In this document: piece by piece, positions 4,960-33,874 of the stretch
How the letters are laid out: every line of letters begins with the position of its first letter
Numbering within the stretch: position 1 is the first letter of the stretch
Origin: Cymbomonas tetramitiformis
Taxonomy: Eukaryota; Chlorophyta; Pyramimonadophyceae; Pyramimonadales; Pyramimonadaceae
Direction: 5' to 3'
DNA length: 64,000 nt
Assembly (NCBI GenBank): GCA_001247695.2
Contig: LGRX02035274.1
Location: 1-64,000, forward strand
Translations under genes and position numbers: made by a program
The notes under the pieces: model-generated
What the model saw: the letters and a program-made list of their open reading frames with translations, nothing else
What the model was told of the DNA's origin: nothing
Database searches by the model: none

Positions 4960-6525
4960 ATGGACCAAGCATCGAAGACCGCTTTCGAACTCGACCGAAT
5001 CGTCACGGAGGATGCGTGCTCTTTGGACGTCTTTTACGCGACGATAGCCTCGCACGATTCCTCAAACTACTATCAGTTACGACACGCGCATGACTGTATG
5101 TACGACACGGAAGATGCGAAGGCGCAGATGCGCACCATCGACCAGGAGCACTTGCGAGCGTATCACTCGCAAGCGATCGGTCGTTTTCCCACGCTTGTCG
5201 ACGGCACGCGCCATCAAGTGTGGCAGGTCGAACTGAGACGCGTTCTGTACGAAGCTGGATGGACGCTGGCCGTGAATGATCGAGAGGGTCGCCAAATTCG
5301 TTTCGACGCGCTCTGCGAACTCCTTCGCGGGATGCCGGTGGACGACGCAGGCGACACATCGACGCTCGCCCTAAACGTGTTTCGGGTCCGAATGTACAGT
5401 CTCTACGTGTGGACCATCCCGATCACGGGAGATGCGCACGAAGCGCTTCTGGGCGACGTGAACTGTTACACGAACTCTGCGCTAGTGAGCGATCTGATCG
5501 ATCCGGAGAGGCTGCACGTCATCGTCATCGCGCTGAGATCGCTGTGGTTACGATCGGTCGAGGACGGACGATGGCCCATTCACTCGGAGCTTTTTCGGTA
5601 CGCCGCCGATACCAGCGGATCGAACTTGGCGACCGACAACGCGCGACAGGGCGTCAATCACATGCTCAACGTGATCGGCGGCAACGGCTACACTGTAGAA
5701 CTCCTCGACTCGGTGTCTTCTTTGTCGCGGATGAGTCCCGAATTCATGCGACGACACGATCTGAGGGAAGACATTTCGGTGTACATGCGGCGATACTTTG
5801 TTGCGTTGCGTTCGGTACAACTCAAGAGCCAGGTTGGCACGCTCCTAGCGCACTACGTGCGTCACGTCGCGTTGTTTCCGCCCGACGCGGACGAAGAGGA
5901 GCCCGGAGCGAGCGAGACTCGGGTGATCATGGACGTCCTCGAGAAGCAAATCTCTCGAGTTTGGAAACTTCGCAAGCGTAAGCGCGTGTGGATCAAGCTG
6001 AGCGACGAGCGACGCTCGGCGTGCAACTCGGCTCGGCTGCGCGCGACCTGCGGACTGATGGTGGCCATCAACGAACGCCAAACGTTGCGCGGAGGCTTCA
6101 CCGACGAGGTGGAGCTAGCGGAGGACGGCTGCGACGACTTCGTAGAAGCCTTCCGAGGAACGCGCGTCTGTCGAATACACGATCTGCACACCGCGCTGAT
6201 GAGGCGCGATGAGGAAGACGCGGCGGGGCACGTGTCGCCTATTCTCGGAGCGCCCAGAAATCACGTCGCCGCGCTGCTTCGTCTGCAGCAGTTGCATGCG
6301 GGAAAGGAGGGATTCGACTACGCCGTCGATCGTTACCTGGATACCTTGTGCGTGATGCAAACCTTGTCGTCGGCGGGCTACTCCTACACTAACCACCATT
6401 GGGGCGCCGTGCTGCACTTTCTGTGCGGAAATGTGCAGCACCTGCACGACCCCAAAGAGATCCTCGGTTGTATGGATCGACTGCGGACGACTTTAGCGAC
6501 GACAAAACGCTTTCGTCTACTGTGA
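4960..6525 (+). CDS. Unknown 521-aa viral protein
   Basis: ATG 4960 is set by a TATAAAG box about 50 nt upstream. The 521-aa protein is mostly helical, with alternating charged and hydrophobic heptads, an acidic patch (DADEEEPGASE, about 310), a basic stretch (WKLRKRKRVWIKLSDERR, about 337-354) and several Cys and His in the C-terminal third (SYTNHHWGAVLHFLCGNVQH). No signal peptide, membrane segment or catalytic signature is seen, and I do not recognise a family. The codon pattern matches the other GC-rich viral genes. The MULE inserted exactly at its end: the target-site duplication begins inside the TGA stop codon (6523-6525), so the coding sequence is intact but the native 3' flank now lies at 19257 onward. 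Confidence 0.7.
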   Translation: MDQASKTAFELDRIVTEDACSLDVFYATIASHDSSNYYQLRHAHDCMYDTEDAKAQMRTIDQEHLRAYHSQAIGRFPTLVDGTRHQVWQVELRRVLYEAGWTLAVNDREGRQIRFDALCELLRGMPVDDAGDTSTLALNVFRVRMYSLYVWTIPITGDAHEALLGDVNCYTNSALVSDLIDPERLHVIVIALRSLWLRSVEDGRWPIHSELFRYAADTSGSNLATDNARQGVNHMLNVIGGNGYTVELLDSVSSLSRMSPEFMRRHDLREDISVYMRRYFVALRSVQLKSQVGTLLAHYVRHVALFPPDADEEEPGASETRVIMDVLEKQISRVWKLRKRKRVWIKLSDERRSACNSARLRATCGLMVAINERQTLRGGFTDEVELAEDGCDDFVEAFRGTRVCRIHDLHTALMRRDEEDAAGHVSPILGAPRNHVAALLRLQQLHAGKEGFDYAVDRYLDTLCVMQTLSSAGYSYTNHHWGAVLHFLCGNVQHLHDPKEILGCMDRLRTTLATTKRFRLL

Positions 6526-6533
6526 AATGTGAG
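6524..6533. repeat. Left target-site duplication of the MULE
   Basis: GAAATGTGAG here and at 19247-19256, directly flanking the transposon. Ten base pairs is within the 8-11 bp usual for Mutator-like elements. It overlaps the TGA stop of the 521-aa gene. Confidence 0.75.
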
Positions 6534-6545
6534 CATATCGCATTT

Positions 6546-7171
6546 AATGGGTGAATGGGTGAATGGGGAAATGGGGAAATGGGTAATTCACCAAGTGAAA
6601 ATACAAAACGGTCCTCGAAATATTTTCAAGTGAAAATACAACGACGCGTCCCTCTTCCGGAATATCCCCGCACCCCCCTCCCCGACAAGTGAAATTCCAC
6701 AACGGGCCCCGCAAATACTGAAAATACACTTTGGTCTCCTTTTGTAAAAAAATGCACCGTCACCTCCCCGATAAAGTGAAAATGCAATTCAGGTGAAAAA
6801 CAACAAGTGAAAATACAAGGACGCGTCCTTCGTCCGGAATATCACCGCGCCCCCCTCCCCGACAAGTGAAATTCCACAACGGGCCCCGGAAATACTGAAA
6901 ATACACTTTGGTCTCCTTTTGTTAAAAAATGCACCGTCACCTCCCCGATAAAGTGAAAATGCAATTCAGGTGAAAAACAACAAGTGAAAATACAAGGACG
7001 CGTCCTTCGTCCGGAATATCACCGCACCCCCCTCCCTGACAAGTGAAATTCCACAACGGGCCCCGGAAATACTGAAAACACACTTTGGTCTCCTTTTGTG
7101 AAAAAATGCACCGACACCTCCCCAAAAAGTCAAAATGCAAATCAGGTGAAAAATACCAAGTGAAAATAAAA
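6546..7171 (+). repeat. Left terminal inverted repeat of the MULE, with 177-bp tandem units
   Basis: Matches the reverse complement of 18588-19235. Its body is about three tandem units of 177 bp (the GACGCGTC landmark recurs at 6643, 6820 and 6997). Short open frames here are by-products of the repeat. Confidence 0.85.
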
Positions 7172-7733
7172 GGAAGTTTCTTTTCCCAGAATAATTATGT
7201 CTCACAGAAAATCTAACAATGACAACCCTTGTCACCATTGACAGCTAATGAGAAAGTGATATTGAACTGATAATATGTAGTCCGTGCTGAATATTTTTGA
7301 AACATGAAATTATTGTCATCGATGACGATATTTTTAGGTGCTAAACACAAAAAATATTTTATACTTTATTTATACAGTAGAATAAGTTTGTCATCGATGA
7401 CGATATTTTTAGGTTGCATGAAAACATCATGACAGCTAATGAGAACGCGATATTGAACTGATTATAAGAAGTCCGTGCTGAATATTTTTGAAACATAAAA
7501 TTATTGTCTTCGATGACGATATTTTTAGGTTGCATGAAAACATCAAGTTACAACAACAAGATTACCATCGGTGACGTTTTTCTCACTATTTGTAAAATAG
7601 GTCTGTCAACAAACAAATACCGCAGATAAACACCAGGAATACATATTGCGACTGTCACAAAATAATATAAAGGTGTTGCTATTTAGGGTTACGAAGCTCT
7701 TGCTGCGTAACTGATTTCCAGACGCGTTCTAAT
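7172..7733. other. Non-coding 3' flank inside the MULE
   Basis: AT-rich, no gene seen. It holds two perfect (7315, 7390) and one variant (7506) copies of the GTCATCGATGAC palindrome, each followed by GATATTTTTAGG, and a partial direct duplication of about 110-190 bp around them. Confidence 0.6.
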
Positions 7734-8171
7734 CTAGTCAATGGTACAAGCGTCCAAATCAAACATTCTAACTAAGCTGCATATTCTGAAGCTGCGCCAA
7801 CAAAACGGACACCTTCCGTCATCCTCCCGCAGCAAGTCACTGCTCAGCTCCATTAACGCTTCGTACGTCAAAATACCGTAGCCGCGAGTGTCATTCCACA
7901 GTTGCAACTGCCACCGTGGATATCCCTCCATTTCGTCGTCGTACCAGCCGATCTCGTACCAGTATACCAAGTGCCTCACACCTGTTCTTTCGGTTGTTGT
8001 GCGGCCGTGGATGTACAACGGCCACACTTGATACCAGTTCCAGGTGTTAAACTGTATTCTGGTTTGGTAAAACTCAATATAGTCCGCTTCCGCTTGTAAA
8101 CGCGCACGTCTCCAAAGCACATTAATTACCTCCGGGTACACCTCAATTACCTCTGGCTGTTCGTCAGTCAT
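7734..8171 (-). CDS. Unknown 145-aa MULE cargo protein
   Basis: ATG 8171, 145 aa, no intron needed. Unusually rich in aromatic residues (NTWNWYQVWPLYI, HLVYWYEIGWYDD, YPRWQLQLW), with an acidic N-terminus and a C-terminal CPFC plus C cluster (RCPFCWRSFRICSL) that may be a degenerate zinc knuckle. No family is recognised. It lies downstream of the transposase on the same strand, inside the inverted repeats, so it moves with the element. It could be a transposition accessory protein or captured host DNA; neither can be tested from the sequence. Confidence 0.55.
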   Translation of the reverse strand: MTDEQPEVIEVYPEVINVLWRRARLQAEADYIEFYQTRIQFNTWNWYQVWPLYIHGRTTTERTGVRHLVYWYEIGWYDDEMEGYPRWQLQLWNDTRGYGILTYEALMELSSDLLREDDGRCPFCWRSFRICSLVRMFDLDACTID

Positions 8172-8605
8172 TTCTCAGCGTAATTGCCACAAAGGTTATT
8201 TCGCAAAGACCCAAACCGAGTTCGCCTTTTCTATTTATGAGCAAAAGCAAACAGTATTCTATTTATGAACAAAAGCTGACAGTATTCAAACGGCGCGCGC
8301 GCGGTGTCGAGTATCGGCGACGAGCACTGGCGGCGGGAAAAGTTCCAGGTTGCTGAAATTTATTTTGTCACACTAACTATTATTCAAGGAGCAAATTATT
8401 TTCTTGCACAAGTTAAAATTATACTAGGACTTCCCCCGTCATCGATGACAACAAACCATGCATGTCCATGTGTCAACAACATGTCGTCATCGATGACGAT
8501 ATTCTCAGGCTGTATTGAACAGAAAGTATATATATTTATGTAAAATCCTCCCGCGTATTATTCTCCGAAGTCAACATTATTACAGATTTAAGTCCAGGTG
8601 TTTTT

Positions 8606-11600
8606 TTAAACAAAGCTCAAACCTCCACTCTTCAAGCGAATCTCTTGAGTTACGTCCACGTTGTCTTGTGCTACTATATTTCGATCGCTCGGTGGCCTTT
8701 GAACCTTGAACCAAGGAGGTAAAAGGCAATATACACACTTCTTCACAGGGCAAAACTGTAACTTTTGCGTTACCCATGTTGAAGTGTAGTTAAGTTTCTT
8801 TTTTCCCATGACAACAACACGGGGACGGCGAGGAGGAAGTATCGGCTGAAGGGAGTTTGTGTCTTTCGCTGTCACACAGCCACTCCTTGAGTATGAAGCC
8901 GCACATGTCGCGTTCTGGGAACTCCCGTTCTGGAGTGCGTACTCTCCTTCTTGGAGCTTTTCCTTACGCTTTGCCACCGTCACATCCTCTAATGCAGTCA
9001 AAATCAGTTCCACCTCGTTGTCGGTAAAACCACTTTGGTAGTAGTACGCATGTCCGGGGAGAAAGCCTGCCTTCATTAAAACGTAGCAGATGTGATTGCA
9101 CCAATGAACACCATATTCCCGTGTACGAGTGGACATAATGTCTTGGAAAAACTTACAGTTACAAGAAACTTGCTTGCCCCTTGAGTGACTAAAAGTCACA
9201 ACACTCTCGGCCATCCTATAGCCCCCAACCTTCAAGGTGCGTGCGTGAACTCCGAAGTTTTCGTCGTTCACCCCGAGAACTGGAGTGGGCGCGGGAACAC
9301 TCAGAACCGAAAGCTTTGCGGGCTCCTTGAATAACTTGGTGAGTGTGCCGACAAGCTTCTTGCTGGCTTTCGAGATGTATTTCACCGTGTTCAGGGTCAG
9401 CACGGAGTAACGCAAGCCGTCTTTGTCAGGCGAGTGTGTTTGCACAGCCGATAGAAAGTCGAATAAGAGGTCGGAATCAATTTTTGTGGCGGTTTTCCAA
9501 TAACCATCCAGCGAGTCATCACTCGGGTCAGGATCGACCTTGAAGGTAAAGACTTCCGTCCCATTCTTAATTGTACTTTTACACTTCACAATCTTCGGCG
9601 TGGGTTCCTGCATGTAACACGTCAAGCTTTCGTCATCGATGACGATTATGCTGAAGAAAATAGTTTGACATTTTTATCTTTAAAACAACGAAATATTGTC
9701 ATCGATGACAATAAGTTGAAGTATTAAAAGTTTACAAGGTGCAGATGTAATGTCAACATGTATCCGATTAAAATGTCGACAAAAGACGTGTCTAATTAGG
9801 ATTAGTGTAAGTTGTTCATACCGGTGTGTTCGTCGTTTGCTGGGCAGCTGGTTGACGAGGGAAAACGCGGGTTTTGTCTGCACGGTGGTTCCTTCCCTCT
9901 TGAACCGCTGGTGGGGAGCGAACGTATATCTCACGGACTTCTTCCATGATGTCATCAGCCGTCGTCCTTGCCCTTTTCTCGGCTGCTAGGTTTGCCCTGC
10001 GCTCTTGATAAAGTTCTTGGACTCGGGACTCACGTCGCACGTACCCGCATTCCCCCATGTGTTTCAGGTGGCTGCTCTGGTCGACAAAGCTGCAAAGCTC
10101 CATGCGCACGGACTCAGACACAGTGAGATGTTTTCCGAGGTTCCTATTATCCTGGTTTCCCAGAGCTTCCGCAAGGTTTGCGGTTGGGTCACGAAAGATG
10201 TGCAGGAGTCTTTCTCCCTCACGGGAGTAAAACTTGAACAATCCACGCAGACTGCTCTGCACGTCCTTACGGGGCTGATCTTCAATGAAGTCCATCAAAC
10301 GAGCTCGAGCATCTAAAAGCTGTCCCGGTGCCAACTCCTTCCACCAATCGTGCCAGAGCTTGTCGAAGGTTTTTGCGTCGAACTCGTTGTCAATCTTCTT
10401 GCAATGGAGACTGACGTCTTTTCCAACGTGAAGGTCGCAGTCTAACTGCAAGGAGTTCCCCTGTGCGTCACGAACACGAAAACCTTTGCGGCTTTCAATG
10501 TCGTCAATCAAAAAGTTGTAGTTCATGCGTAAACCATTCCAGGCGCCTCCTGCAAGTGCATTACACTAACATTAACATCTGAAACTTAAACTTTTCTTTG
10601 TCATCGATGACGATGTGCAGCCTAGCTTTAATTAACTGTTGATGTAAAATAGAAAATATTTTTGATATCGTCATCGATGACAATAAAATGACAATACAAA
10701 AATATACTGAGTACTTTATTATAATTACCTGCAGCGTCACGAACAAAACCCCCTGGTCGAAAATGTATTTGACCTTTGGACTCTGGCCAGTTCTTTGCAT
10801 CCAGGTATGCCGCAAACTCTTCTGGGTGTTCCTGAGCGTAGATAGCGACGGCGTAATCGACCGCAGCCCACATCGCCCTCTCGTCCATGCCACGTTCCCC
10901 GGCGGGCAAGGGGTTGACTACTAGTTTTATCAAGCCGAGTGTTGGAATCACGCAACATATCTTCTCCACAACCTTGTCCCTCATTGTTTTGTGCATGCCA
11001 TCGGAATAAGCCAGCTGACCTTTGAAAGGTGGCTTTCCGAGGACTCTGTCCATTAATAGCATCACCTTGGCAGGCGACCACGGAATGTCCAAGGGACAGA
11101 TGAAGTACTGCAAAGGCGGCCTGTGATAATTACATTTGTTAGTTTCGAATAACAAACATGGAACAACATCAATATTGATATTGCTATGTTTTGAATGCGT
11201 ACCTTTCGAACAACAACGCGCGGAGTCCAAGTTCTTGCAAGCGCTGACGCAACTGTCGTATCTCGACATCGGGGTCCTTTGAGGGGACATACGTCGAGCT
11301 CTTGCTTCCTCGAATAACGTACTCCAAAGCCCGAACATCTTGCACCGCCTCTGACACGTTCAGTACGTCTTCTAGGGTGGTTGACTCGTGTCCACTCAGC
11401 AGTTTGTTCATCACATTGGCGGTTGCCGCCATCTTCAGGTTTTCCAATCGAGCTGCGCCCATCTCGGGGATTGCCTTCAAGACTGCCTCAGTTTCGGTTT
11501 CCCCAAGGTCTGCTGGCTTGGTTTTTTTGACAAGGTTTGTGCAAGAGTGCTTCCCGTAGTGTTTAAACATCAACAAATAGCCTGATCCGGGCTTAAGTTC

Positions 11601-12659
11601 ACCACGGTAAAGCGTGGCGGTAGCGGCACAAGGTTCCATGGATGTAGTTTGTTTGCACTTTGCACATATCGGTGCCACTTGTACTTGTTTCCCGACTTGC
11701 GCCACCTATTGAATTACAGGCTATATTTATTCAATGAAAATGTTTTGCAAGCAAGTAACAATATTCGTCATCGATGCCAAAACAGTCAAAACATTATAAA
11801 GCATCTTTTCTGAAAAAATAAACTTGCGAAACAACTGTCATCGATGACGATATTAGAAAGTACTATAATTATATAAAGTAAAAAAACGGTTTCATACCTT
11901 TTCAATGAAGTTTTTGCCATGTATTTGAAGGAACGGACAAGTCTTATTCTTGCATACCGCCTCTCCAAGGCATTTCACACTTCGAATGTTGACCTTGGCA
12001 CCCAGCTGCTTCCAGTTATCAGTTATTGCCTTGTCGGTCGATTTATTCGCATGTGACCAAGTACGCGGTGTTTGAAAGAATGGGAGTTTAACCAAAGAAA
12101 CCCCACGTCTGTCCTTGGATGGCGGTTGTTTGACGTGGAAACCGAAGGTCATATTCCCGTCGACGTTAGAAGGCACTTGGGTGGTGAAGATTGTATCTTT
12201 GGGGAACGCGTTTGCAAACTGAAAGTCCTGCTTTGACAAATTCGCAACAGGAGTATCAAGCTCAGGTTCAAAGGTATCTGCAGGTTCCGAGTCGCATAAG
12301 TTGACAAAAGTGGAAGCAGCTTCGCCAGTGATCTCAGGTTCGTCCTCAGACTCTGAAGCCGCGGAGGTTGCGGCAGGAGTTTTCGGTGAAGCATCTTCGG
12401 GCTCGTCTTCGGTATCAATCAAACAACCTATAACTGAGTAGCCCCATTCCGGGTCCACGCGGTACACCTCCTTGTCACAGACATATTTCCTACTAGCCAG
12501 TTTTGCAACAGCCAATCCATCGTCGGGGTTAAGTCCGAAGGCGTCACAAATGTCCTTGTGCAAAACTTGGCATCGCTTCCCACGTGCACGCCATGGAATA
12601 GGCCGACAAAGAAGAACACCTTGAGGGGTTTCGAAGAAGAAATCCACAAAGTTGCCCAT
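8606..12659 (-). CDS. MULE transposase (DDE, SWIM zinc finger), five exons
   Basis: Exons on the minus strand: 12659-11898, 11705-11203, 11120-10729, 10549-9822, 9607-8606. Every junction has GT...AG (donors GTATGA, GTACGC, GTAATT, GTATGA) and the phases agree, giving 1,128 aa. Residues about 462 (AYSDGMHKT) and 550 (GGFVRDAAGG) fit the first two catalytic Asp of Mutator-type transposases. A C-D-L-H pair at 590-593 fits the family's C-x-H motif, and a SWIM finger (C944, C946, C965, H967) closes the protein, the usual MULE order. The third catalytic acid was not assigned. The N-terminal 250 aa are unrecognised with an acidic linker. Four palindrome copies sit in the promoter and nearby intron pairs. 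It would cut and paste the element via its inverted repeats. Confidence 0.8.
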
Positions 12660-13224
12660 TGTGCAAAAAGAATAGTTCAAATAGCTGTAATATTTCACAC
12701 GCACTCGAATGTCATCGATGACGAAAAAGGTAACATGTAAAGATTCAGTCAGAGCTGAGAAAGAGGGAGAGGGCGTAGTGTCATCGATGACATGTTATCG
12801 ACAAAACAATAATTTGTCAAGTATTTACCTGCTATCAAGCAAATTATATTGTCATCTCGTAGTTGCAACCTTCTTGGAGTTCTATATTTGTTTGTTAAGA
12901 ATTGTGCAGTTCGAAAAATAAGTTGTTGTTAAGTAGTCCGCGCCAGAAACTTGAAAATAGAAATTGCCAATATAATAATATTATATATGAAATTAATAAT
13001 TAATTGTTTATTCAGCCCCCCTAACCCCCCAACTCACTTCCCACCGCCCCACCCCCCCTAACCCCCCAAAAAAAAAAAGGACGCGCGCGGCTGGAAATCA
13101 CGAGTGGTTGACGAATTTAGACAATAAGAAGCGGAGAGTGGCGGCCCCTTAGTCAGTTCAAAATTTTTGTCACTGCCACCCCACCTCACTCCACAGTCAA
13201 CGCTGCACATTCAGTAATAATAAA
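12660..13224. promoter_or_regulatory. Divergent promoter region of the MULE
   Basis: 565 bp between the transposase ATG (12659, minus) and the methyltransferase ATG (13225, plus). Contains palindromes at 12711 and 12780 (69 bp apart), an AT-rich stretch at 12955-13005, and a C-rich strand-biased tract at 13015-13078 with CCCCCCTAACCCCCC twice. No gene is seen. Confidence 0.55.
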
Positions 13225-16200
13225 ATGGCATACTCGGCCGGAAAAAGAAACACTAAAGTGCCAATAGAATGGAACGTAGTCAGCAAGCCAAGAACCGCGC
13301 GGGGAAAGTCTGCACCCACCAGTTCTGAACAAGATTCAGGGGAGGTCGTTGAGTCTCTTAACATTGGGGAGATACACAAGGCAAGATATATTGAAACTTT
13401 GGAACTGAACTTGAGTGAGTGCTCTTTTGATGACAATCCAAGAGGTCACAAGCATTGTGCCGTGGAGGCCATGAAGCGCATCGAGCTCGTGGGATTCGAC
13501 CCCATGTGCGACATGATGTGGTACAAGACGCCGGACAGTAAGAGGTGAGCTATTTCTTTCTTTTACGTCGTGTGTTCTTTTTACTTTCCTGACCCATTAG
13601 CTTTAATTATAGGCACAAGTACAAGGCAATTGACGGACACGGAAGAAACGAAGGTTTCCGAAAGGCGTATAAAGAAGGTGGCGTCGTTGCAGGCAAGAAA
13701 GTCGAACCCGGCGACAAGTGCTGGCTGAAGGCCAGGGTGCAGGTAAGCTTTAATCTTTTCCAATCTTTTATTTGATAACATTTCGGGTTAAAAAAGTTGT
13801 CCTGAGTGTCCCTCTGAGGTTGTTTTTTTTTTTTTTATTGGCATCGATGACAAGCTTCCTGTATTTTGTCATTAAGTTCGCTTTTGGCTCGTGCCTTAAA
13901 CCTTTTCTCAAACGTCATCGATGACGAAGCAAGTCTCTGCGTGGATAATTAGTCGAAATATTTTTGAAAACTTAGTATTCTTTGTCATCGATGACGGCCT
14001 GGGTACCTGTCGTGTTTCTTCACTGGACGTATATACGTTTAGAAATACTTTTGTCATCGATGACAATATTTTTCTGAGCCTGAATGAATGTGCCTGGTTT
14101 TTTCTGCGAATATTACGCCACTGAGACACGTTTAGAAATATTTTTGTCATCGATGACAATATTTTTCTGAGCCTGAATGAATGCGCCAGGTTTTTTCTGA
14201 GAACATTACGCCACTTAGGCACGTTTAGAAATATTTTTGTCATCGATGACAATATTTTTCTGAGCCTGAGTGCCCTTGCCAGGTGTTTTCTGAGGACATC
14301 ACGCCACTGGAGATCAACTTCCTTGCGGGCTCGCGTTTCGTGACGAACGAGAAGGGGGTGAAGGCTTATAATTTTTTTTCTAAGTTCATGTATTTTGATC
14401 GGCTTTTGAAAGCCTGGCCAAAGGAATCGAAGCTCTCTGGACCTGCAATGGTTGCTCGTTACGGCACGCTCGACGAAGACTACAACCAAACCTTTTTCAA
14501 GAAGCTCATCTCCGTTCACAAACTTTTAAGTGAGGACCAGCGACTGCTTGATTTGGTTGAGAAGAACTGCGAGGAGCTTGGAAGTCACAGTCCTTTCGGG
14601 TTTGCTAGTTTGTATTCAAACAAGGAGCTTGGGGATTTGTCGCTGGAAAACAAGGTATAACTGGCGCAAGAAAAATATTCCTTACCTTATATTTGTTTCC
14701 GTTTCAAGTATTGTTGACATCGATGACAACTGCGTTCATGTATTCCCGGTTTCGGCATGCAGAACAGGTAGAACTTAAAGCATGGCATGTTGTGGTAACT
14801 TGTCAGGTGAAAGCCTTTCAGGCTGTGTGCAAGAACGTGACCTACTTCAAGCACGGAGAAGATTCTGAAAAAGGACACTGGCTGCAGACACAAAGCATGA
14901 AGGATCACACGCCGGTCATTAAGTCAGCAAGAGGCTTTACTGACTTCTGCACAACCCTTAGAATGAGGGAAAAGATAACGGCAAGACTTGAAGAGCTCGT
15001 GAAAGAAACTGGTGTTACTTTCAACCAAGAAAAAGCAGACGAGTTCATGGCTGAAGTCCTTAAAGGATGGTAAGGTTATTTTCCCTTCTTCTTTTCCTTT
15101 TAACAGTGTGCTTTCTTTGATCAATGTGCTTGAGTGCTCATTGCAAGCTGTTATTATTTATAGCTAACGAAAAAGGTGTGTCTCGCAGCCAAGACAGCTT
15201 TTTATTTCCGGTTGACAAAAGCCCATTGTCTTCCAGCCCAGTCGCTTGCCGACTGAAAGAGGACGAAATAAAAAAGGCACTTGCTTTCGTGGAGGGGAAG
15301 TTCAAAACCGCTGTTTTCTACAAGGACGACGAAGTGGAGGACATGGACTTGGAGGCCGTCAAAGTTCAAGTTACACCTGCGAAGGAGGTTGAAAAGCATG
15401 CAAAAGATGCAGTCTCTGGAGAGAACGTGGCTGAGTCTCAACATGAGGAGCCCTCAGCAGCTAACTCAGACGCACAATTGAAAGCCTGGTTGGAAGGCGA
15501 CAACGACGCTGAAGGGGGGCAACAACCTGCCAACGAGGACACTTCGCAGCCGGCACACGTAAACTTTGACATGAGCACCTTGCATAAGCCAGAGATGATT
15601 GCTGGTACGTGGAGCTTTCAGAAAAACACCTGGTCACATGAAACTTGTTTGTTTTCCGTCATCGATGACGAAGTTTTTCGTCATCGATGACGAAGTTTAG
15701 GCAGTACGTTACGATGCTTTTTTAAGTTTTTTCACGTGCACACATGACTTACATTTACTAATCAAGACTGAACAAACTTTGATCAAACTTTGTTCTTCTC
15801 GCAGAAAGCTTTATTCTCATCGCAGATGTAAAGCATGCAGAGGATGAGCACGAAGAAGCAAAGAAGACCGTGAAGAAGTTAAATAAGGTAATGCAGAAAT
15901 ACGTGATCGACAACGTCCAAGCGATGAACTTAGACGACGAGACCGGAGTTGCAGTAAGGGCAGAGTTGAAGAGGAAAAAGGACGAGATCGATGTACTGAC
16001 CACGGATCGTAAGAGGAAGAAGGAGCGGAGGTTATCTCTTGCGGCGGAGTTGGAATCAGTCCAGCAGAAGCTAGAGATGCCATCGCCAGAGAAAGAATCC
16101 GTACTACCTGAGTTGCCACCTATACTGGTACCCATTCCAGAAGCTTCAGAATCACGGCAAGCAACACCGGTGAGTTGTTGAACATGTAATGTAAAGTTTT

Positions 16201-18107
16201 AGCAGTTGCTTTTGTTAACATTGATGAAGACTTTCTTAAACAGAATATTTTTGTTTCAGGCCCCCAAACAATCACCCGAGGTTCCAAACCAGCCGGGTTT
16301 CTTTTACGGTAGCCCGTGGGACCCAGTGAAATGTTACGAAGCACTGAGTGGTGATGACAAAAACCTCAACTTCAAGACGGAAAAGAAGCTGACCAAGCGA
16401 GATGGTTCTACGTGGGACGCCCGAAAGCCTGGGGTGAAGGAGATTGAGTTCCTGGAGTTCCTGGTTGCTAACCCGTTGGAGGGAAAGCCTATTGGCTACA
16501 GTCGTAGTGACATCTATGTATCTTGTCAAGAAAAGATGTCCAAGGCCTTAAACCTTATCTACTACAAAGCGACCGTGGTCGCCATCGGTGCTGAGAAGAC
16601 CAAGTGCTGGGTTTTTCAGAGTGAGATTCTCACGTACGCAGGAGTACCCGCGGTGACATTGGCGTGTTGTGACGCGGTGAAAGCAACGAAGCAGCTGCTG
16701 TCTGTGTTCTTTGAGGGGGTTGGTGTGGCCGCGGTCATCACGGACGTTCCTTGGGGAAGCAGTGAAAAAGCCGGGTACCCAACTGACATCGACTGGAAGG
16801 TGGCAACGAAGGCAATCTTTGGTGCAGTGGCCGATAACAATGGTAGCATGGACAAGTACGAGAAAGCTGTGGACCTAGGCGGGCCGGACGGAGACACCGT
16901 GTTCACGGTGATGGGCACACTTGAAGTGCTTCAAGAAATAGAAGAAGAATCGAAGAACTGCAATCTCAGTGGTTTTGTGAACCTTCCCGGTATGATGTCT
17001 TCTGTATTATTTCGGTAGTATAGCATATCTGAAAATATCGTCATCGATGACAATATGAGACTCATATTTACTTAGTTATTTCGTGTTTGAAATATTTTGT
17101 TCAGTATTTTTCGTCATCGATGACGAAGTTGTTGTCACTGTCTGCAGGTTGCATTACATATTCCAAGCTGAGGCTTGCTGAGGTTAGGAGCAATACTCCG
17201 TGCTCCTCTGGAATCTGGTACACATGCCTGGCAAGAACGCCGTCTAAAGTCGTGTGTGATTGGAAAGCTTTCTTTACACCTCAAGTTTCAGATCGGCACA
17301 AATACATTCTCACCCGTAAGTACAAGTACGACGTTCTGTCGACTTCGTTTACCGGGAACATCATTACTTGCCCGTCGAACGAGGAGAAGGCAACGTTGCT
17401 GCGCAACTTGTTAGACGCGGTGAAGGAAAGCGTTCGGGAGGAGCGTGGAGAAGATGTGAAGCCGGGCGACGATGACGAGAAGGTGCGGGAGGATTTCATG
17501 GTAGCTGAGGACCTGCTTGACGATGAGTTCACACGTATGAACAAGGCTTTCAAGCAGACGGTGTCATCAACCACGGTGAAACATAACTGCTCACTGACTG
17601 GCTGCCAAGCGTTTAAGCAAGAAAAGTGTGAGAGGTCTGGAAAGGCTTTGGTTTACGGACAGAAAGACCCAAATATGATGAATATGCTTGTGCAGCGGTA
17701 CACGTACTTGCCAGGGCAGCTCGTGATGGATCCGTTCATGGGAACCGGTATGTTCTGCTTTCCTAATCGACTTGCATGCCGGCTTGTATTGTGATGAAAG
17801 GAGTTTGCATGTGGAACAAGTTCCCGTTTGCAATGTCGGCTAGACGTATTGTGTTTTCCAAAGTTCAGTCATTCTTATTGTTCGGCATGTGCGCCTGCTG
17901 GAAACTTTGTCATCGATGACGGTTGTCATCGATGACGGTTGTCAAATATCCTGAGTGTAGTCGAAGTTTGTGTATACAGGGAGCACAGGAATTGGAGCCT
18001 TACACGCCAGACGTGCGTTCTTTGGCATGGAGATCCAACAAGAGACCTTTTGTCAGACGATGTTGATGATATCTTCAAGTCTGGCGGGCATGTCACTTGA
18101 GGGATAA
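13225..18107 (+). CDS. Beta-class DNA amino-methyltransferase, nine exons
   Basis: Exons: 13225-13544, 13613-13742, 14283-14654, 14807-15069, 15189-15604, 15826-16169 (or from 15805, also in frame), 16260-16989, 17148-17747, 17980-18107. All introns are GT...AG and all phases agree, giving 1,100 aa. The catalytic motif IV is TDVPWGSS (about 777-784). The SAM-binding motif I, DPFMGTGSTGIGA, lies downstream at about 1053 and is completed across the last intron. The order IV then I is that of beta-class N4-cytosine or N6-adenine methyltransferases. Exon 6 is coiled-coil-like (K/E-rich); the N-terminal ~600 aa are unrecognised. It is divergent from the transposase within the element. Likely modifies transposon or host DNA; the base and site are not predictable. 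Confidence 0.8.
14036..14314 (+). repeat. 93-bp tandem repeats copying a splice acceptor
   Basis: Three units of 93 bp (palindromes at 14053, 14146 and 14239) in intron 2 of the methyltransferase. Each unit ends with a version of CCAGGTTTTTTCTGAG plus an ATTACGCCACT-like tail, matching the real acceptor and first ~25 nt of exon 3 at 14280-14314. Confidence 0.75.
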
Positions 18108-18587
18108 GTGTTAGACTCGACCTGTTATTTGTTCAGTTAGGTGAAGAGAAAATTGTACTTTCACAAATAAATAGAAGGGAACCTGAAGTTTAACTTTTTT
18201 AGGTATGTGCTGTCATCGATGACGGGGAAAGTAACTTCGGCTAAAAGTGTTTTCTGACAAATAAATAGAAGTGAATCTGAAGTATAACTTCTTTGGTATT
18301 TCCTGTCATCGATGACGGGGGAAGTAATCTTGGTCGCCGTGTTATTCCTATAACAAAAACGGTTGCACTGTCATCGATGACGGGGGAGGTCCCTGTTATA
18401 TAATCTTTTGATGGTTGATTCGTGTCCGTTATTTCTGGGCTGTGGTTGTGTTGTCATCGATGTCGAATAGAGTCCTAGTTGTATTCTTTTGCCAGGCAAA
18501 ATGGGAACTTGTATTTTCACTTATATTTATGCAGGTTTGTAAACATGCACGGTTGCAGTATTAAAAAACACCAACATTTTTGAAGAG

Positions 18588-19235
18588 AGACGCGTCGTAG
18601 TATTATCACTTGTAGTTTTTCACCTGAATTGCATTTTGACTTTAGCGGGGACGATACGTCTCGGTGCAATTTTTCAGAAAAGGATACCAAAGTGTATTTT
18701 CAGTGTTTTTGGGGCCCGTTGTGTAAGTTCACTTGTCGGGGAGGGGGGTGCGGGGATATTCCGGAAGAAGGACGCGTCATTGTATTTTCACTTGTTGTTT
18801 GTCACCTGAATTGGATTTGGACTTGAGCAGGGACGATACGTCTCGGTGCATTTTTTACCAAAAGGAGACCAAAGTGTATTTTCAGTATTTCCGGGGCCCG
18901 TTGTGTAATTTCACTTGTTGGGGCGGGGGGTGCGGTGATATTCCGGAAGAAGGACGCGTCATTGTATTTTCAGTTGTTGTTTTTCAACTGATTTGCATTT
19001 TCACTTTATCGGGGAGGTGACGTTGCATTTTTTACGAAAAGTAGACCAAAGTGTATTTTCAGTATTTTCGGGGCCCGTTGTGGAATTTCACTTGTCAGGG
19101 AGGGGGGGTGCGGCGATATTCCGGAAGAGGGACGCGTTGTTGAATTTTCACATGAAAATAATTCGAGGACCGTTTTGTATTTTCACTGGGTGAAATACCC
19201 ATTTCCCCATTCGCCCATTCACCCATTCACCCATT
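18588..19235 (-). repeat. Right terminal inverted repeat of the MULE
   Basis: Reverse complement of 6546-7171. Tandem units of 178-182 bp (GACGCGT landmark near 18590, 18771, 18953, 19131). Ends with repeated CCCATTCACCCATT just inside the duplication. Confidence 0.85.
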
Positions 19236-19246
19236 CTTTGCGCGAC

Positions 19247-19256
19247 GAAATGTGAG
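19247..19256. repeat. Right target-site duplication of the MULE
   Basis: GAAATGTGAG, identical to 6524-6533. Confidence 0.75.
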
Positions 19257-19607: not shown

Positions 19608-20843
19608 TCAATCTCGTCGATAAAAAACGTGGTAATAAGTTCCATGCTTTTCGACAATCACCAAATTGTGTAAAAGCTCCGTACAAGGAGTTGAGGTGGA
19701 CGTATTCGGTTTTGATATATTCGCCATCGAGGCATTCGTAGAGTTCCGCTGTTCTTCGGCTATCTTTTGCGATTCGACCGCTTGTGTTTTGTTGTAAATG
19801 AAAAGCGCTCGCTTGGCGACGATTTCACCGTTTCGTATCGTAGGACTTCTAAAAAGCGATGTAATCCAATTGCCTTGTAAAAAACTGCCACACGTGATTG
19901 AGCTTCTAAGTATTTGTCGCGCTATAGGATGCAAAAGGTTGGTCATATTAACACACGCGTCATCATTTCTAATCGTCTCCCGAAAAGCAGGGTGGTATAC
20001 GTGACCCGCGTGTCCGCTATACGCATGACTTAAACATGTTACATCTTGTAGGTCACCCACAAAATTGTACGATTTGAAATGCTTTATGTTTTCTATTGTA
20101 AAATTTTCATTTATTTTCTTTTGGCTGCAATACATCATGGCGTGGAACGTGCACAAATTTACCACATTTGACTCGACCTTTTGCGAATTCTTTAGTAAAA
20201 GACAAAGTTCCATAGCGACAGCACCACCCAACGAATGTCCGCATATAACGTATCTATGTTTTTTATCGATTAAATGTTGCATCTCCTTGAATATCTTCGA
20301 CGCTCTTGTACGTACTTCGTGGTTTGTATCTTCCAAAGAAAACCGGTTGAAAAAGGAACTCGCGATCCATGTAGTTTCTTTGAACCTCAAGCCGCGCATC
20401 GCAACAACTACGGTATTATCGATCTCTCGGATTATATAGTTTTCGTCGCTTATTAAACTGTTTGTAGACGGTCTGTGCGCGGGCGCGTAACTGTAATGGA
20501 CGTGGATCATACAGAACAGACTCTCATCCACCCCAAATGCGATGCGCTCCGTTTGAAACAGCTTATTCCCTTGAAGCATCTCGACCAGGCGGTTTTCTAA
20601 ATGAAGCAGTTCCTTCGGTTGATCGGGCGTGTTAAACGAAACCTCGTTAATTTCTTTCGGAGCATCAGTTGGTAAAATAGCGTTACATACGCGCTCAGTT
20701 CTTTTACCCACACTTAAGTATGTTTGATTAACGTCGCTTAGAAGGATAGTATCGGAAATCTCAACGCCGGTACAACTTTCCATAAAATCCTGGTTAGACA
20801 CCTCAGTCTTTTCCGGGACGTCCAAATAGTCGACAAGGCTCAT
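19608..20843 (-). CDS. Class-3 type lipase
   Basis: ATG 20843 is 54 nt downstream of a TATATATAT box (20897-20905); the frame is open further upstream, but only from non-ATG codons. 411 aa. Residues 141-151 (IDNTVVVAMRG) match the strand before the oxyanion site in lipase class 3, and 201-209 is CGHSLGGAV, the nucleophile elbow with Ser204. Asp264 (NFVGDLQDV) and a His near 284 complete a plausible triad. No signal peptide or membrane segment is seen. The Thr/Ser/Asn-rich tail is low-complexity. The gene is clearly more AT-rich than the nuclease and portal genes beside it, suggesting separate acquisition. Known class-3 lipases hydrolyse acylglycerols or phospholipids; use in entry or egress is inference. 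Confidence 0.8.
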   Translation of the reverse strand: MSLVDYLDVPEKTEVSNQDFMESCTGVEISDTILLSDVNQTYLSVGKRTERVCNAILPTDAPKEINEVSFNTPDQPKELLHLENRLVEMLQGNKLFQTERIAFGVDESLFCMIHVHYSYAPAHRPSTNSLISDENYIIREIDNTVVVAMRGLRFKETTWIASSFFNRFSLEDTNHEVRTRASKIFKEMQHLIDKKHRYVICGHSLGGAVAMELCLLLKNSQKVESNVVNLCTFHAMMYCSQKKINENFTIENIKHFKSYNFVGDLQDVTCLSHAYSGHAGHVYHPAFRETIRNDDACVNMTNLLHPIARQILRSSITCGSFLQGNWITSLFRSPTIRNGEIVAKRALFIYNKTQAVESQKIAEEQRNSTNASMANISKPNTSTSTPCTELLHNLVIVEKHGTYYHVFYRRD

Positions 20844-20896
20844 CTCGCCGAAACTATGGGCACGTGTGCGCCCTGTCGAAACCGATAACTCCTGTG

Positions 20897-20905
20897 TATA
20901 TATAT
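20897..20905 (-). promoter_or_regulatory. TATATATAT box of the lipase gene
   Basis: 54 nt upstream of ATG 20843. Confidence 0.6.
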
Positions 20906-20968
20906 GTAGTTTGGCCGCGGAGACTGTACATATAAAACGTCTCGCGATTTGCTTCGTCGAATCCACGA

Positions 20969-23900
20969 CTAGATTTCACGCGACTCCCTCTCTCTCATGT
21001 CCGGGTGTCTCACCGGAGGGTCGACCTCTCGCAGCAATATCCTGTAAACTCCTAGAAGGCGTTCGTTGTCGTCGTTGTCGCGATGCATACCGAAAAGAAT
21101 CTCCTGGTCTTGAGCGGCGACGTAGTAACGATGCCCGTGATCGTGGGCGTGGAGATACGCAACGAGCCACCGAGAGACGTCTCGATCACTCGAACCGTCT
21201 TGCGGCTGGTCGAGGCCCTCCACAGGGTTCTCCGTGGCGTGGAGGAACAGGTGAGACCTCACCGAGGCCGTGAGAGCGGTCCAAGCCGCGCCGAGTTCGA
21301 GATTCTGCTCGTGCGCGCTGCGAATGGGCAATCCGGGAAAAACTCGTCCCAGTTCACTTCCGGCGGCCGCGTACAACACCGGATTGAGGATCCACGACTG
21401 CGTCGCGCTCTGCGATTGCTTTGGCGGCCAGGAGTTGGGGGTGAGACTGTAAGCGCCCGATGAAGTGGGGGGGTCGTTTCTCCGAGTGTCGTCGCGGTTT
21501 CGAACCGGCGAGCCGTTCCGAGGTTCGCCCTCGGAAAGCCGCTCCGTCGTATCGATCTGACGACGGTTCTCGGAGGGACCTCGTCCACGAAGATGATCGC
21601 GTATATCGTTCGCCGCCGTGTCGATCGCGTGATGCGCGGTCGTGGTTTCGCCTCTGTCCGCGCGCAGAGAATCTCCTTCGTATCCTCGCATATCCGCCTC
21701 GAGTAGGTTCAAAGCGAACGTGGTCCACGATCCTCTGTCGCTCATGTGGGGGAATTGTTGCGCGCGAGTGTGCGCGGTGTTCGGATCAATCTCCGAAAAC
21801 CAGCCGTGCCCGATCGGAGTCGCCATCAACGCGCTGACGGCGGCGTGCACGCGGTGATTAAGAAGGCGGTTCAAAGACCTGCAGAAGACCGTCGCTCTCG
21901 CCCTGCGAGATTTGCTGGCTTTGGGAAGCGGGTTGTAAGGTTCGTCGTCGTCCGGCGCGAATTGCGGCCGACCGTTCGCGGGATTTTTTAGAGTGAGGAT
22001 GCGTCGAAAGAGCGTGAGAGCGTCGTGCTGATCGAACTCGACAGCCATCTCCTCGGCTTTTTGCATGACGCGCTTGTTGATACGGCCGCGGGCTCGAGCG
22101 TTCTCGTCGGGTTCCCTACGATACTGTCGGCCGGCGTTCGCGGCTTGGCCGCGAGTGACAGGCGCGCGCAGCGCGTCGAACTGTGCGACCGCGGACGTGA
22201 GGTACCTATTCGCCTGGGGTACGCGCGGCGATTCCGCGTTCGCCGCGGCTCGTCTCGTCGCCCCGTACCTGGTTTCCATTCGACGTGGCGGTTCCACCGA
22301 GGGCGCACTCGGAGGCTCGACCGCACGTACTCGTAAACCGAAGCCGTGCACGCCGGCGTGGTCGTTCTCGGCGCCGAAGACTCTCACCGAGGCGATTCCT
22401 CCCAGGAGGTCGTCGTCGGCGTTCCGATATTCGTCGAGCAGGTTGTACCGAACGGCGAAGTGTATGTACGCCTCCGGAGTCGCGCGTCGAGAGGAGCCGA
22501 GATTGTATCGCAGACCGCCACCGCGCCGCATCAAATGATTCCTCGCGAGCAGAGGGACGATATCCTCGTTCGTCCGCTCGTGCAGATAGTTCAATCCGAT
22601 GGCGCGAAGACCCGGGTCCCTCAGAGCCAGGTCGATCGATCGACGCGACGGAACGAAGCCGCGGTTTCCGCGGACCCGTGCGTCATCGTCGTCCGCGAAG
22701 GGTTCGCCTGTTTTGGGCCCCTCTCGCAAACGTCATTCGTCCGGCGGGTTGAAGCCGACAACGAACACCCCACAGCAAAACGCGCGAGGATGAGCGCGAC
22801 GCACCTCTGGAGTGCCACAGGCGCCGATGAGTTTCGTGCATCGTCACGCACATACGGGTGATGGCAAACTCGGGACATCGGACGTCGTCCCGGCAGAAGA
22901 TGTCGGGCATGTCGTGCGACCGATTTCCGGATGGAGGCTCGCCGAATGCGTGTATGTCCGCGTGCTCAGGCTCGTGATCGACCGAGGTTTCGTGCGGCGA
23001 CAACAAAAAGTGTCGCTCGTCCATGTAGTGCGCGTCGTAGTCGTTCGTGTTCTGGAAAGGGGAGGTCATCACGCGTTGAAAGAGGCGCATCTGGTATCTG
23101 ACAGTCAGATCGACGCGAAGCAGTCCGACGTACGCCACGTTCTCGCCTTGCACGGCTTCCTGCGGCGCCGAGCGAGTCCTCTGCCGGGTCCGCCTCAACT
23201 GCGGCTGACGCCGAAGAGGTCGATCGAGGTAGTCGGCGCGACGCGTGGAGAACACGAGCAGGCAGTGCGAGGGCAAAATTCCGACGCACGCGTAATAGAC
23301 AAAGGCGTTCGTCAAGCACTGCCGCACGGTGTTTATGTCGAGTACGCGAGGCGTCGCTTTGCGCGCCTCCATCAGCATCTTGTGCTCCACGATGACCACG
23401 CGTCCCTCGTGATCCGCTGCGCGTCCTCTCGAACCGACCCGTCTAGCGTGAATGACCGCGTCCGCGCGAGTCTCGTAAAATAGGGGAGGGCTCAGAGCGC
23501 GTTTCTTTTCGTAGAAGGTGAAGTACGGATTATACACCGGGTATTCCGTTCCTACGTAGGACCACTCCACTTCGCTCGCGGTGGCGTCGTCGAAAAGGCG
23601 GTGGCCTTGCTGCTTCATGAAATTGCGTACCGCTGCGTCGGCGTTTGCGGCGAAGACGTGACAAAGTGTGTCGAGGGAACCCTCGAGGTACGCCGTGTCG
23701 ACGGTCTCCGCTGTCGTATCGGGAACCGGCTCGGTGAAGGAATCCACGCACAAGCGCGGAGGAATGGGTGGAAAGGCGTCTCGGAAATAGCGCCCTTCGA
23801 TCTGCCACATGCCGTCGCGAGAGAGTGAGAACTGCGCGGCGATGTGAGGCGCGCAGAAGGTATCGCGCGCCATGGCGGTGGGGACATGCTCTCGGTATCG

Positions 23901-25445
23901 GTTTCGGATGGCGCTCCCGAGTCGATTCCGCTCGGTGCTCGCCCCGGTCATGAGAACGCGGATCATCGCGATCTCGTGAGACCGCGCGCCCACCCAAGTG
24001 TAAAGAGCGCCCGCGACGACCTGTCGAGCTCTTCGCGTGTTGCGCTGAATGAAATCCAGGGGTCCGCCACTGGTCGGTATGGCCTCTTCGACGCTCTCCG
24101 CGAACATTTCCGAGGTGACGTACGCGTCCTCGCTGACTAAACGCTGCGCGTTCTCATTCACGCGCAACGGCAGCGTTCTTCGCGGTCGTGTCGCGCGTTC
24201 GACGCGATCACTTCGTTCCTGTGGGTCGTGCACCTCGTGTGCTCGGTCGCTCGAACCGGCCGCCGGGGCTATTCGTTCGAACGACATCCGATACACCAGT
24301 TGGCGATCTCGCGCCGCCCTCTCCGGGCCTTCCCCGCCGTCCGTGTTCGTACGTCTGCCAAAGAAGTACTTTAACACGGGAGGGTTACGGAAGGCGACCA
24401 GCTCTTTGAGCGGACTTCTTCCCACGCGAACCGCCTTCCATCCAAACGTGCAGACGGCTGGAAAGCAGCCTCCGTACGCGTCGTCCGCGTCCATTCGCTG
24501 GCGGTCCGAAATCCGGTGTCGAGAACGTCCCACCCGAGAGCGAACGTCGTGCACCATGATGCCTTCCACTTCCGGTGCTACGGTCAGACGGGCGGCGTTC
24601 ATGGCGTCGGACATTCGTCTCACGGTCTCCTCGACAGTCGCCACCATCAAAGGGGCCGCGCGAGAAAAAGGTCCCCAGGTGTGTTCTTGATACCTGGGGT
24701 GCGCGGCCCAATGCGCCGAGTGGTCGTGGCGATCCGTGTCTTGCGCGCTCACGGGATCGTCTCGCATAGCGTTCGCGGTGGTCAAACCGCGCGCTGATCG
24801 GAGAGCCTGGAGATGCTCCATCATCGCGAAGGACACCATCCATCGCATGTCATTCGCGTAGTTTCGCAAATACGCCGGAATCGATCTCCGTCTGTTACGA
24901 CTGAGATATCGAAAGTATAGATGGCGGAAGGCGTTGTATCGGCTACATCTCGGACCCAGGAAGTTGTTCTTCGAAACGCTCTCGATCCAACGCAGTTCCC
25001 CGACCGCCTCCGGATGAGCGCGGTGCCAGCGTTCGACGAAATCCTGCTTGAAAAGGCGGACGTGTACGGCGGCGTCGGAAAAGTCGGTTGGTTTGTAGAT
25101 GTAGTTGGATTCGTCCGTGTAATTAAGGTAGCACCCAAAATCCAGATGCACCGAGTAGTTGGCCCCGTTCTCGCATTTGACGATACGAGCGATGTACCCT
25201 CCGTCCACCGCGCAAAAGCGGTATCGAAGCAGGTTCGATCCCACCTCAGGCCACTTATCAAAATAGGTTCCCTCCTGTCGCGGAACGCCGTTTGCGTCCG
25301 TCGTCATCTCCATCTCTAGACGGTCGTACACGTCGTGCGCGGACCGAGAAACTGTGAAGATGGCGGAGTCGCGATCCTGGCCGTCGCGAATTCGCCCAGC
25401 GCGCCGCCCACGCGACGCCGCCGAGTCGGCAGTGTCGTCCGTCAT
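20969..25445 (-). CDS. Large PD-(D/E)XK nuclease, two exons
   Basis: ATG 25445, 52 nt below a GATAAATA box (25497-25505). The first frame (to stop 22683) and the second (from about 22729 to 20969) are joined by an intron. The second shows 60-odd coding-like codons before any ATG, and removing 22804-22708 (donor GTGCGT, acceptor ACAG, 97 nt; or 82 nt to 22723) restores one frame of 1,459 aa. Near residue 660 is ADAVIHAR, then VVIVEHKM (E-x-K, about 686), then QCLTNAFVYY (about 711). This is the D...ExK...Q-x3-Y order of Cas4/RecB-like nucleases. The C-terminal exon is Arg/Pro-rich with little recognisable structure. No helicase motif was seen. Probably processes viral DNA during replication or packaging. 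Confidence 0.7.
22708..22804 (-). other. Candidate intron in the nuclease gene
   Basis: AGAG|GTGCGT donor and CAAAACAG acceptor (or GCGAG at 22723). Both acceptors rejoin the two open frames in phase 1. Confidence 0.6.
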
Positions 25446-33243: not shown

Positions 33244-33741
33244 TCAGGTGAGGAATTGGTCGCCGTAAGAATCTAAGCGTGATATAGGCGGTGGCCCTGA
33301 TAAGGGCAGTTCGTATCGCTTATAGAATATCGTGCGATGATATTGCCACCACAAAACCGTGAGACAGCATACAAAGAATATCGGCACACACATAACGTAA
33401 ACCTGGTTTTGCGCGAACCGTAAGCTGGAGTCGATGACGCGATAAAGCTCCCTTTCAGCGGTCTTCCACGCGTCTTGAAGCGCGAGAAGCGTCGCTCGTT
33501 GTGACAGTTGATCGTCCGTCGCTTCCTTGTGTATCAAGGTGCAATCGAGAAAATCTGTGGAATACCGCATCAGCTCGCCCTGATGATTGACGCACGCGGA
33601 ATAAAGCAAGCGGCGAGCTTCTAGCATCCGATGCCGCAGAGCGTGCGCGTGCGTTTGATATCGTTCCGCCACGTACAAACAGCTCATCGCTATGGGCACG
33701 ACGAGCAGGCTTCGTCGTACGAACGAAACACCCGGCAGCAT
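33244..33741 (-). CDS. Two-pass membrane protein, 165 aa
   Basis: ATG 33741. Hydrophobic segments at about 9-26 (VRRSLLVVPIAMSCLYVAE, signal-anchor-like) and 113-134 (VYVMCVPIFFVCCLTVLWW) flank a helical luminal or external loop with three Cys and regular heptads. A short Tyr/Pro-rich C-terminal tail includes LPLSGPPPISRL. No family is recognised. It is divergent from the heliorhodopsin; the TATA box between them (33867-33874) is 126 nt away. Could be a small envelope protein. Confidence 0.65.
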   Translation of the reverse strand: MLPGVSFVRRSLLVVPIAMSCLYVAERYQTHAHALRHRMLEARRLLYSACVNHQGELMRYSTDFLDCTLIHKEATDDQLSQRATLLALQDAWKTAERELYRVIDSSLRFAQNQVYVMCVPIFFVCCLTVLWWQYHRTIFYKRYELPLSGPPPISRLDSYGDQFLT

Positions 33742-33866
33742 CTCAATCGAAGCTTGTCACTCAAGCGGTCGCGGTCATCCGTCACATACCGCGCGACGCT
33801 CGCTGTTCGACAAATCGTGGGCACGCACCGCTCGTTTCGTATACACAGTTCGATGTCTCGGGAACG

Positions 33867-33874
33867 TATATATA
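33867..33874 (+). promoter_or_regulatory. TATATATA box of the heliorhodopsin gene
   Basis: 52 nt upstream of ATG 33926. Confidence 0.65.

Follow-up and report, generated by a model that had tools for sequence, protein, structure and literature searches.

Within a 64,000-nucleotide stretch of the genome of the prasinophyte alga Cymbomonas tetramitiformis (contig LGRX02035274.1, positions 1 to 64,000; genome of 851.7 Mb), hereafter the window, we describe a 12.7-kb transposon element (6534-19246) whose non-coding parts carry numerous copies of the 12-bp palindrome GTCATCGATGAC. Sequence comparison indicates that these palindromes are a selected array of cis-acting recognition sites. The element contains two divergent genes, one for a putative transposase (minus strand) and one for a DNA methyltransferase (plus strand), and the best current label, as judged from the sequences, is a selfish recognition-site array of a transposon with its own, probably adenine-type, DNA methyltransferase. 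Together, the array and the methyltransferase gene point to possible marking or recognition by the element of its own copies.

The palindrome was identified in 25 perfect and five one-mismatch copies, all located within 7315-18464, and this recount is identical to that of a first-pass annotation of the window. The flanking DNA, described in that annotation as free of the motif, contained no copy at zero or one mismatch in the rest of the window outside the element, and six at two mismatches. When up to two mismatches were allowed, the whole window exhibited 36 matches, compared with a shuffle mean of 4.27 (largest 12). The claim that every copy is non-coding was also upheld: coding sequence, taken as the two spliced gene models and a doubtful open reading frame (ORF) of 145 aa, was overlapped by 0 of the 25 perfect sites and 0 of the 30 in total. 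The element is 56% coding and 44% non-coding, and by simple proportion an entirely non-coding distribution has a chance of 2e-11 if all 30 sites are treated as independent and of 9e-6 if only 14 clusters are. A site was present in all eight introns of at least 152 nt (the 152-nt intron with an imperfect one only) and in none of the four introns of 68-119 nt.

With one-mismatch sites counted, ten spacings between consecutive sites fell within 64-76 bp (75, 66, 70, 70, 69, 74, 70, 69, 73 and 65 bp). Random placement, in which the number of sites per non-coding interval was held constant, gave a mean of 1.3 such spacings and a maximum of 7 in 20,000 placements. The clustering of spacings reported in the first-pass annotation is therefore beyond chance, with its last value corrected from 66 to 65 bp and with other short spacings also present in the element (16, 22, 48, 83, 93, 93, 93 and 116 bp). 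The linkers of the site pairs appear unrelated in sequence while their spacing is kept, so that length, not sequence, is conserved. Chance or base composition as the source of the array was ruled out by the shuffles, the random placements and the reversed-word control given below.

The sites are distributed over both ends of this region, the introns and the intergenic interval. Three are found in the left end (7315-7517; sites at 7315 and 7390, and an imperfect one at 7506), and two more, at a spacing of 48 bp, follow the 3' end of the transposase gene (8438-8497). Transposase introns 4 (9632-9709, 66 bp), 3 (10600-10681, 70 bp) and 1 (11767-11848, 70 bp; 11767 imperfect) each contain a pair, and another pair is located between the divergent genes (12711-12791, 69 bp). 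Methyltransferase intron 2 encompasses six sites (13840-14250; 13840 imperfect) at steps of 74, 70, 69, 93 and 93 bp, the 93-bp steps representing a tandem duplication. A single imperfect site was observed in methyltransferase intron 3 (14716-14727), followed by pairs in introns 5 (15658-15691, 22 bp), 7 (17040-17124, 73 bp) and 8 (17909-17936, 16 bp), and by four sites 3' of the gene at 93, 65 and 83 bp (18212-18464; 18453 imperfect). The 93-bp unit, present three times at 14035-14309 in methyltransferase intron 2, also appears by eye to duplicate the beginning of exon 3 together with the 3' splice site there.

Gene models were obtained by splicing open frames together at GT-AG introns. The methyltransferase gene (13225-18107, plus strand) encodes 1107 aa in nine exons (13225-13544, 13613-13742, 14283-14654, 14807-15069, 15189-15604, 15805-16169, 16260-16989, 17148-17747 and 17980-18107) and matches the DNA methylase profile PF01555 (E=8.8e-9, 36.1 bits, curated cut-off 26.7). 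A profile of the methyltransferases from four families of such elements, compared with PDB, identified the adenine-specific enzymes DpnA (8e-12), CcrM (1e-7) and MboIIA (4e-6), then N4-cytosine enzymes (7e-5). The methyltransferases of the three other families are 34-39% identical to that of the window, and two motifs are invariant in all four, a presumed catalytic D[VI]PWG upstream of a cofactor-binding DPFMG[ST]G. From these similarities, the protein is a bacterial-type and probably N6-adenine enzyme; its N-terminal ~600 aa have no Pfam match. The putative transposase gene (8606-12659, minus strand) encodes 1128 aa in five exons (12659-11898, 11705-11203, 11120-10729, 10549-9822 and 9607-8606) and is conserved in the sister families. 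Pfam and PDB sequence searches returned no family assignment for it, and no DNA-binding domain was recognised; conserved cysteine/histidine clusters were seen by eye, as were DDE- and SWIM-like motifs, the latter by eye only. Pfam matches to Glyco_hydro_14, Marek_SORF3 and SAD_SRA were below threshold and were disregarded. The 145-aa ORF (7734-8171) has no counterpart in families B and C, described next, and no Pfam match, and may not be a gene.

To define the families, the genome was searched with one methyltransferase exon of the window, and the best 150 of 676 candidates were scored. Among these, 124 rows at 82-100% identity, nearly all at 92% or more, represent the window's own family (family A), and 26 rows showed 36-40% identity. 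Two diverged kinds were recognised, with one locus read for each: family B (C25394, 36%) and family C (C3447, 40%). Both contain the two genes in the divergent layout of the window, with methyltransferases 37-39% identical to the window's, and GTCATCGATGAC occurs 16 times in family B and 11 times in family C. Periodic spacing in sibling elements, set beforehand as a test in the first-pass annotation, was found in both as 68-69-bp pairs. In family B, methyltransferase intron 2 contains these pairs, separated from one another by 43-bp steps, and arrays at 27-28 bp occur elsewhere. Family C exhibits them in transposase intron 3, in methyltransferase intron 2 and ahead of the D[VI]PWG exon. DNA alignment of family A with B and C recovered exons and short motif-centred stretches only, the latter joining sites that do not correspond.

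A fourth family, D, is represented by P0003 (CYMTET_47173; 100% identity in this genome) at locus C22996. The 17 kb read at this locus contain ten copies of TTCATCGATGAA, one of CTCATCGATGAA and none of GTCATCGATGAC. TTCATCGATGAA is GTCATCGATGAC with the outer pair altered symmetrically (GTC..GAC to TTC..GAA), and this change on both sides appears to be what a dimeric or both-strand reader would require. Seven sites lie within 440 bp, spaced by 22, 70, 69, 136, 69 and 70 bp, at the place where the window's methyltransferase gene has intron 1 (family D seems to be without intron 2), and two sites are present in each inverted end. The end sites (C22996:64472-64859 and 74442-74829) are 387 bp apart, unlike the ~70 bp of the internal cluster. 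A search with the family D exon, in which the best 150 of 689 candidates were scored, returned D copies at 98-100% identity in 150 of 150 cases, indicating from sequence identity that this family is large and young; no element with only one of the two genes was found among them. Across families B, C and D, 0 of 39 core sites fell within coding spans matched by tblastn. In all four families read, the methyltransferase gene was linked to the array.

The behaviour of the sites over time was assessed in a copy of the element (C10929) that is ~10% diverged. There, 9 of 228 aligned motif bases differ, five of the nine in one lost site, compared with 256 of 2361 other non-coding bases and 431 of 4526 coding bases; 24 more motif bases correspond to gaps arising from two absent tandem units. 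The difference between motif and other non-coding bases gave a Fisher p of 5e-4, or 1.5e-6 when the lost site was omitted, although the bases are not independent. Among the 21 sites compared, 14 are identical, two are absent and five are changed: those at 12711 and 15680 by one base each, 13840 by one base (imperfect in both copies), 14716 by one base (perfect in C10929), and 17925, which is lost. In 30 recent copies, diversity was 0.0031 at motif bases versus 0.0087 at other non-coding bases, and the polymorphic share was hardly different (5/108 versus 47/775).

Deleted relatives also retain the motif. C47 and C62, which are 97% alike, are ~3-kb deleted elements. Their two inverted ends, of ~0.8-1 kb, derive from the left end and include its pair of sites, and five sites lie in the middle, which consists of a piece from methyltransferase intron 2 and exon 3. 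In C80, the ends are similar, and a central cluster of six sites at 71, 31, 69, 31 and 71 bp matches the window element in the motif alone. Further examples include C19, which retains six sites and the 3' end of each gene; C113, with 33-bp inverted repeats, no gene homology and three perfect sites spaced by 73 and 137 bp; and C1208, with one TTC..GAA pair 70 bp apart in a stretch without element assignment. These clusters argue, at the level of sequence, for a cis role serving the element over a role in the expression of its genes.

Genome-wide, GTCATCGATGAC was counted at 5473 sites, versus 106 for the reversed word. The motif had been described as belonging to one transposon; it is associated with the element within the window, but it is not confined to one copy. 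Pairs of GTCATCGATGAC 57-87 bp apart number 2072, and pairs of TTCATCGATGAA number 893, with spacings of 69 or 70 bp among those listed. Core pairs of the A and C outer classes, in which G or T follows the core, number 2 and 3 on the two strands, and the reversed controls gave 0 for GTCATCGATGAC pairs, TTCATCGATGAA pairs and pairs with the other outer bases. The counts of 2072 and 893 against 2-3 indicate that two specificity classes dominate the genome, although the pair counts are weighted heavily by multi-copy families. In nine pooled loci, picked for having sites or gene matches and with duplicated units counted, 32 of the 59 spacings of at most 150 bp fall at 65-76 bp.

The identical palindrome across diverged families, the symmetric change of its outer pair and the fixed spacing with free linkers point to a site for a dimeric protein acting in groups. 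The general proposal of the first-pass annotation that the motif is recognised by a protein is thus well supported, as judged from the 12-mer and its ~69-bp spacing in two sister families, the symmetric change in a third and the fewer changes in the ~10% diverged copy. The reader of the sites is probably encoded by the element, since the outer pair is family-specific and sites are present in the elements examined. Its identity is less certain, and the element's own methyltransferase is our tentative candidate, with a chance approaching even. It is preferred over the transposase because it reads DNA sequence, because such enzymes frequently work on the two strands of a palindrome, because its active-site motifs are invariant and because the sites are scattered through the non-coding DNA in the manner of the VANDAL elements discussed below. 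This gene was absent from the first-pass annotation, and its presence raises the methylation reading that the annotation had listed among its options.

In the mechanism that we propose, the methyltransferase, or a complex built on it, would read TCATCGATGA together with the family-specific outer base pair and would methylate adenines at the sites. Holding the sites ~70 bp apart, which is too short for a nucleosome in between, would keep the intergenic region, the longer introns and the ends open. Copies, deleted ones included, would be labelled as self, avoid silencing and remain open to mobilisation. We infer the adenine chemistry at the site, the nucleosome exclusion and the escape from silencing from the features described above. 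In the prasinophytes covered by PMC12695648, whose main text does not mention Cymbomonas, 5-methylcytosine (5mC) is high and N6-methyladenine (6mA) replaces 5mC in the first nucleosomes of active genes. By analogy, and as speculation, an element that supplies its own adenine methylation could imitate active chromatin. In its fullest form, this would be a DNA transposon with its own epigenetic self/non-self code, in which an adenine methyltransferase and palindromic address sites allow autonomous and deleted copies to be marked in trans and kept open, and in which GTC..GAC and TTC..GAA act as separate codes letting large families share a nucleus without cross-talk. We offer this fuller picture as a possibility of perhaps one in three.

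Several points weigh against these interpretations. The 93-bp unit is in tandem three times, so the sites are not all independent, and some clusters are plain tandem duplications; young deletion products may also retain sites through descent. For a methyltransferase site, 12 bp is long, and methylation needs no fixed spacing. The similarity of the methyltransferase to Pfam and PDB entries lies mainly in the cofactor (DPFMG) region, with the catalytic region adding 2.4 bits, and D[VI]PW deviates from the usual DPPY/W catalytic motif. Finally, both genes are present in every full element read, which leaves the methyltransferase indistinguishable from the transposase as the reader.

Alternatively, the transposase may bind the sites, with ~70-bp pairs nucleating a synaptic complex and internal sites titrating or autoregulating the transposase. 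The fixed spacing suits an oligomeric complex, both ends also carry sites, as do deleted elements, whose mobilisation has to come in trans, and the cysteine/histidine clusters seen by eye are conserved. However, the sites are spread through the introns and the intergenic region and do not crowd the ends, and the profile and PDB searches recognised no DNA-binding domain, so we consider this account rather unlikely. Even with the transposase as the reader, it would be unusual for internal arrays to keep their spacing across diverged families.

A host transcription or chromatin factor, whose sites were gathered by the elements as promoters or enhancers, would agree with the sites in introns and between the divergent genes and with the identical motif in three families of one host. 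Such a factor seems distinctly improbable, because family-specific outer pairs that differ in the same nucleus better suit an element-encoded reader, and because clusters persist in elements without genes. A role at the RNA level, in which palindrome pairs form stem-loops aiding splicing or stability, would fit the pairs in most of the longer introns but has very little in its favour, given the sites that lie in intergenic DNA, beyond the 3' ends of genes, inside the inverted-repeat ends and in gene-less elements. It is equally hard to credit that the array is a functionless by-product of tandem duplication and gene conversion: clear duplications are seen in the 93-bp units of the window, the repeated units of family B and the 440-bp inverted repeat of family D, yet the window's pair linkers are unrelated and of similar length, and the motif is shared between elements whose introns have ceased to align and varies less than the rest of the non-coding DNA.

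Among known systems, the array is closest to the VANDAL elements of Arabidopsis, as described in PMC5735166 and PMC10398659. There, VANC21 binds a nine-base motif in non-coding regions, and the element-encoded VANC protein relieves silencing; the density of the motif is important, and the motif spreads through tandem repeats. Both systems comprise many copies of a short motif in the non-coding regions of a transposon, introns included. Compared by description with VANC, the Cymbomonas array differs in being built of a palindrome, often spaced at ~70 bp, identical in three diverged families and accompanied by a DNA methyltransferase; in addition, protein searches identified relatives of the element's two proteins almost only in Cymbomonas. 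Retrotransposons with C5-cytosine methyltransferases, possibly for self-methylation, are described for dinoflagellates and charophytes (PMC5890265). They resemble the present case as transposable elements carrying their own DNA methyltransferase, whereas here an inverted-repeat element encodes a PF01555 enzyme closest to adenine enzymes and carries arrays of one long palindrome. The enzyme shares with the beta-class N6-adenine methyltransferases (DpnA, CcrM and MboIIA) its cofactor-region profile similarity and the order of the catalytic motif before the cofactor motif, but it differs in being a eukaryotic gene with 8 introns and a ~600-aa N-terminal part without a Pfam match. Searches of open-licence papers for transposons with adenine methyltransferases, for Mutator elements with a DNA methyltransferase and for 6mA in connection with endogenous giant viruses and transposons listed no comparable case, and the transposon-borne methyltransferases encountered in print are the C5-cytosine enzymes of retrotransposons. 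If the proposal is true, self-addressing of a transposon via short-motif arrays would have evolved independently outside land plants with a different enzyme chemistry, and what adenine methylation does in an alga would become testable at thousands of defined sites of two specificities, with deleted elements as natural controls. The element may also offer a very specific DNA-reading enzyme.

The element is inserted between flanking genes of the window and is bordered by an exact 10-bp target duplication, GAAATGTGAG (6524-6533 and 19247-19256). Its inverted end regions, each ~0.65 kb, are built of 177-182-bp tandem units: the left region (6534-7183, plus) contains ~177-bp units and the right region (18582-19246, minus) ~182-bp units, the two arms pairing at 6539-7183 and 18582-19242. 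At the tips (6534-6560 and 19220-19246), the outermost ~11 bases are unlike (CATATCGC versus GTCGCGC), and by eye C47, one of the deleted elements, shows the same two tips, together with a target duplication of 9 bp. The first-pass annotation had called the element a Mutator-like element (MULE). Long terminal inverted repeats, the 10-bp target duplication (8-11 bp in MULEs) and deleted relatives with long inverted repeats are in line with this label, but the Pfam profile search identified no MULE transposase domain in the element's proteins. Membership is therefore putative, resting on the inverted repeats, the target duplication and the motifs seen by eye.

In the flanks, a lipase-3-like alpha/beta hydrolase frame (19608-20966, minus; PF01764, E=1.5e-6) and a heliorhodopsin frame (33692-35035, plus; PF18761, E=1.4e-24) were identified. 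Long frames at 39313-50553, 29243-32869 and 58842-62357 (plus) and at 35405-37840 and 22683-25445 (minus) had no Pfam match at E<=0.01, the search of 39313-50553 covering 3000 residues only. Heliorhodopsin-containing mobile elements (CHeCME) of putative mirusvirus origin are described for Cymbomonas in PMC10675990, and the flanks fit these elements, as both heliorhodopsin and lipase-like alpha/beta hydrolase genes are present.

Outside this genome, the 12-mer was absent from 73 viral loci with distant methylase matches (966,544 bases), which contained 6 copies of the 10-bp core. A viral source of the motif was rejected; in IMG/VR, a single contig (L039) showed a spaced pair, and it carries two sites and nothing that matches the proteins of the element. 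As text in the part of the literature accessible to search, GTCATCGATGAC appeared in one paper, on osteonecrosis. Close relatives of the element's two proteins comprise Cymbomonas records, including P0001 (CYMTET_8702; 78% identical to the window's methyltransferase), the EukProt protein P0002 (78%) and the metagenomic methyltransferase fragments P0004 (39%) and P0006 (55%); the remaining relatives in protein searches are distant PF01555 enzymes. P0004 continues beyond NLPG, the position of the window's intron 7, and VIDDE occurs twice in that continuation, as GTCATCGATGACGA would encode (as read from the protein record alone), so that P0004 apparently reads through an intron with motif copies. 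From their sequences, P0004 and P0006 suggest that such elements occur in other marine algae or strains.

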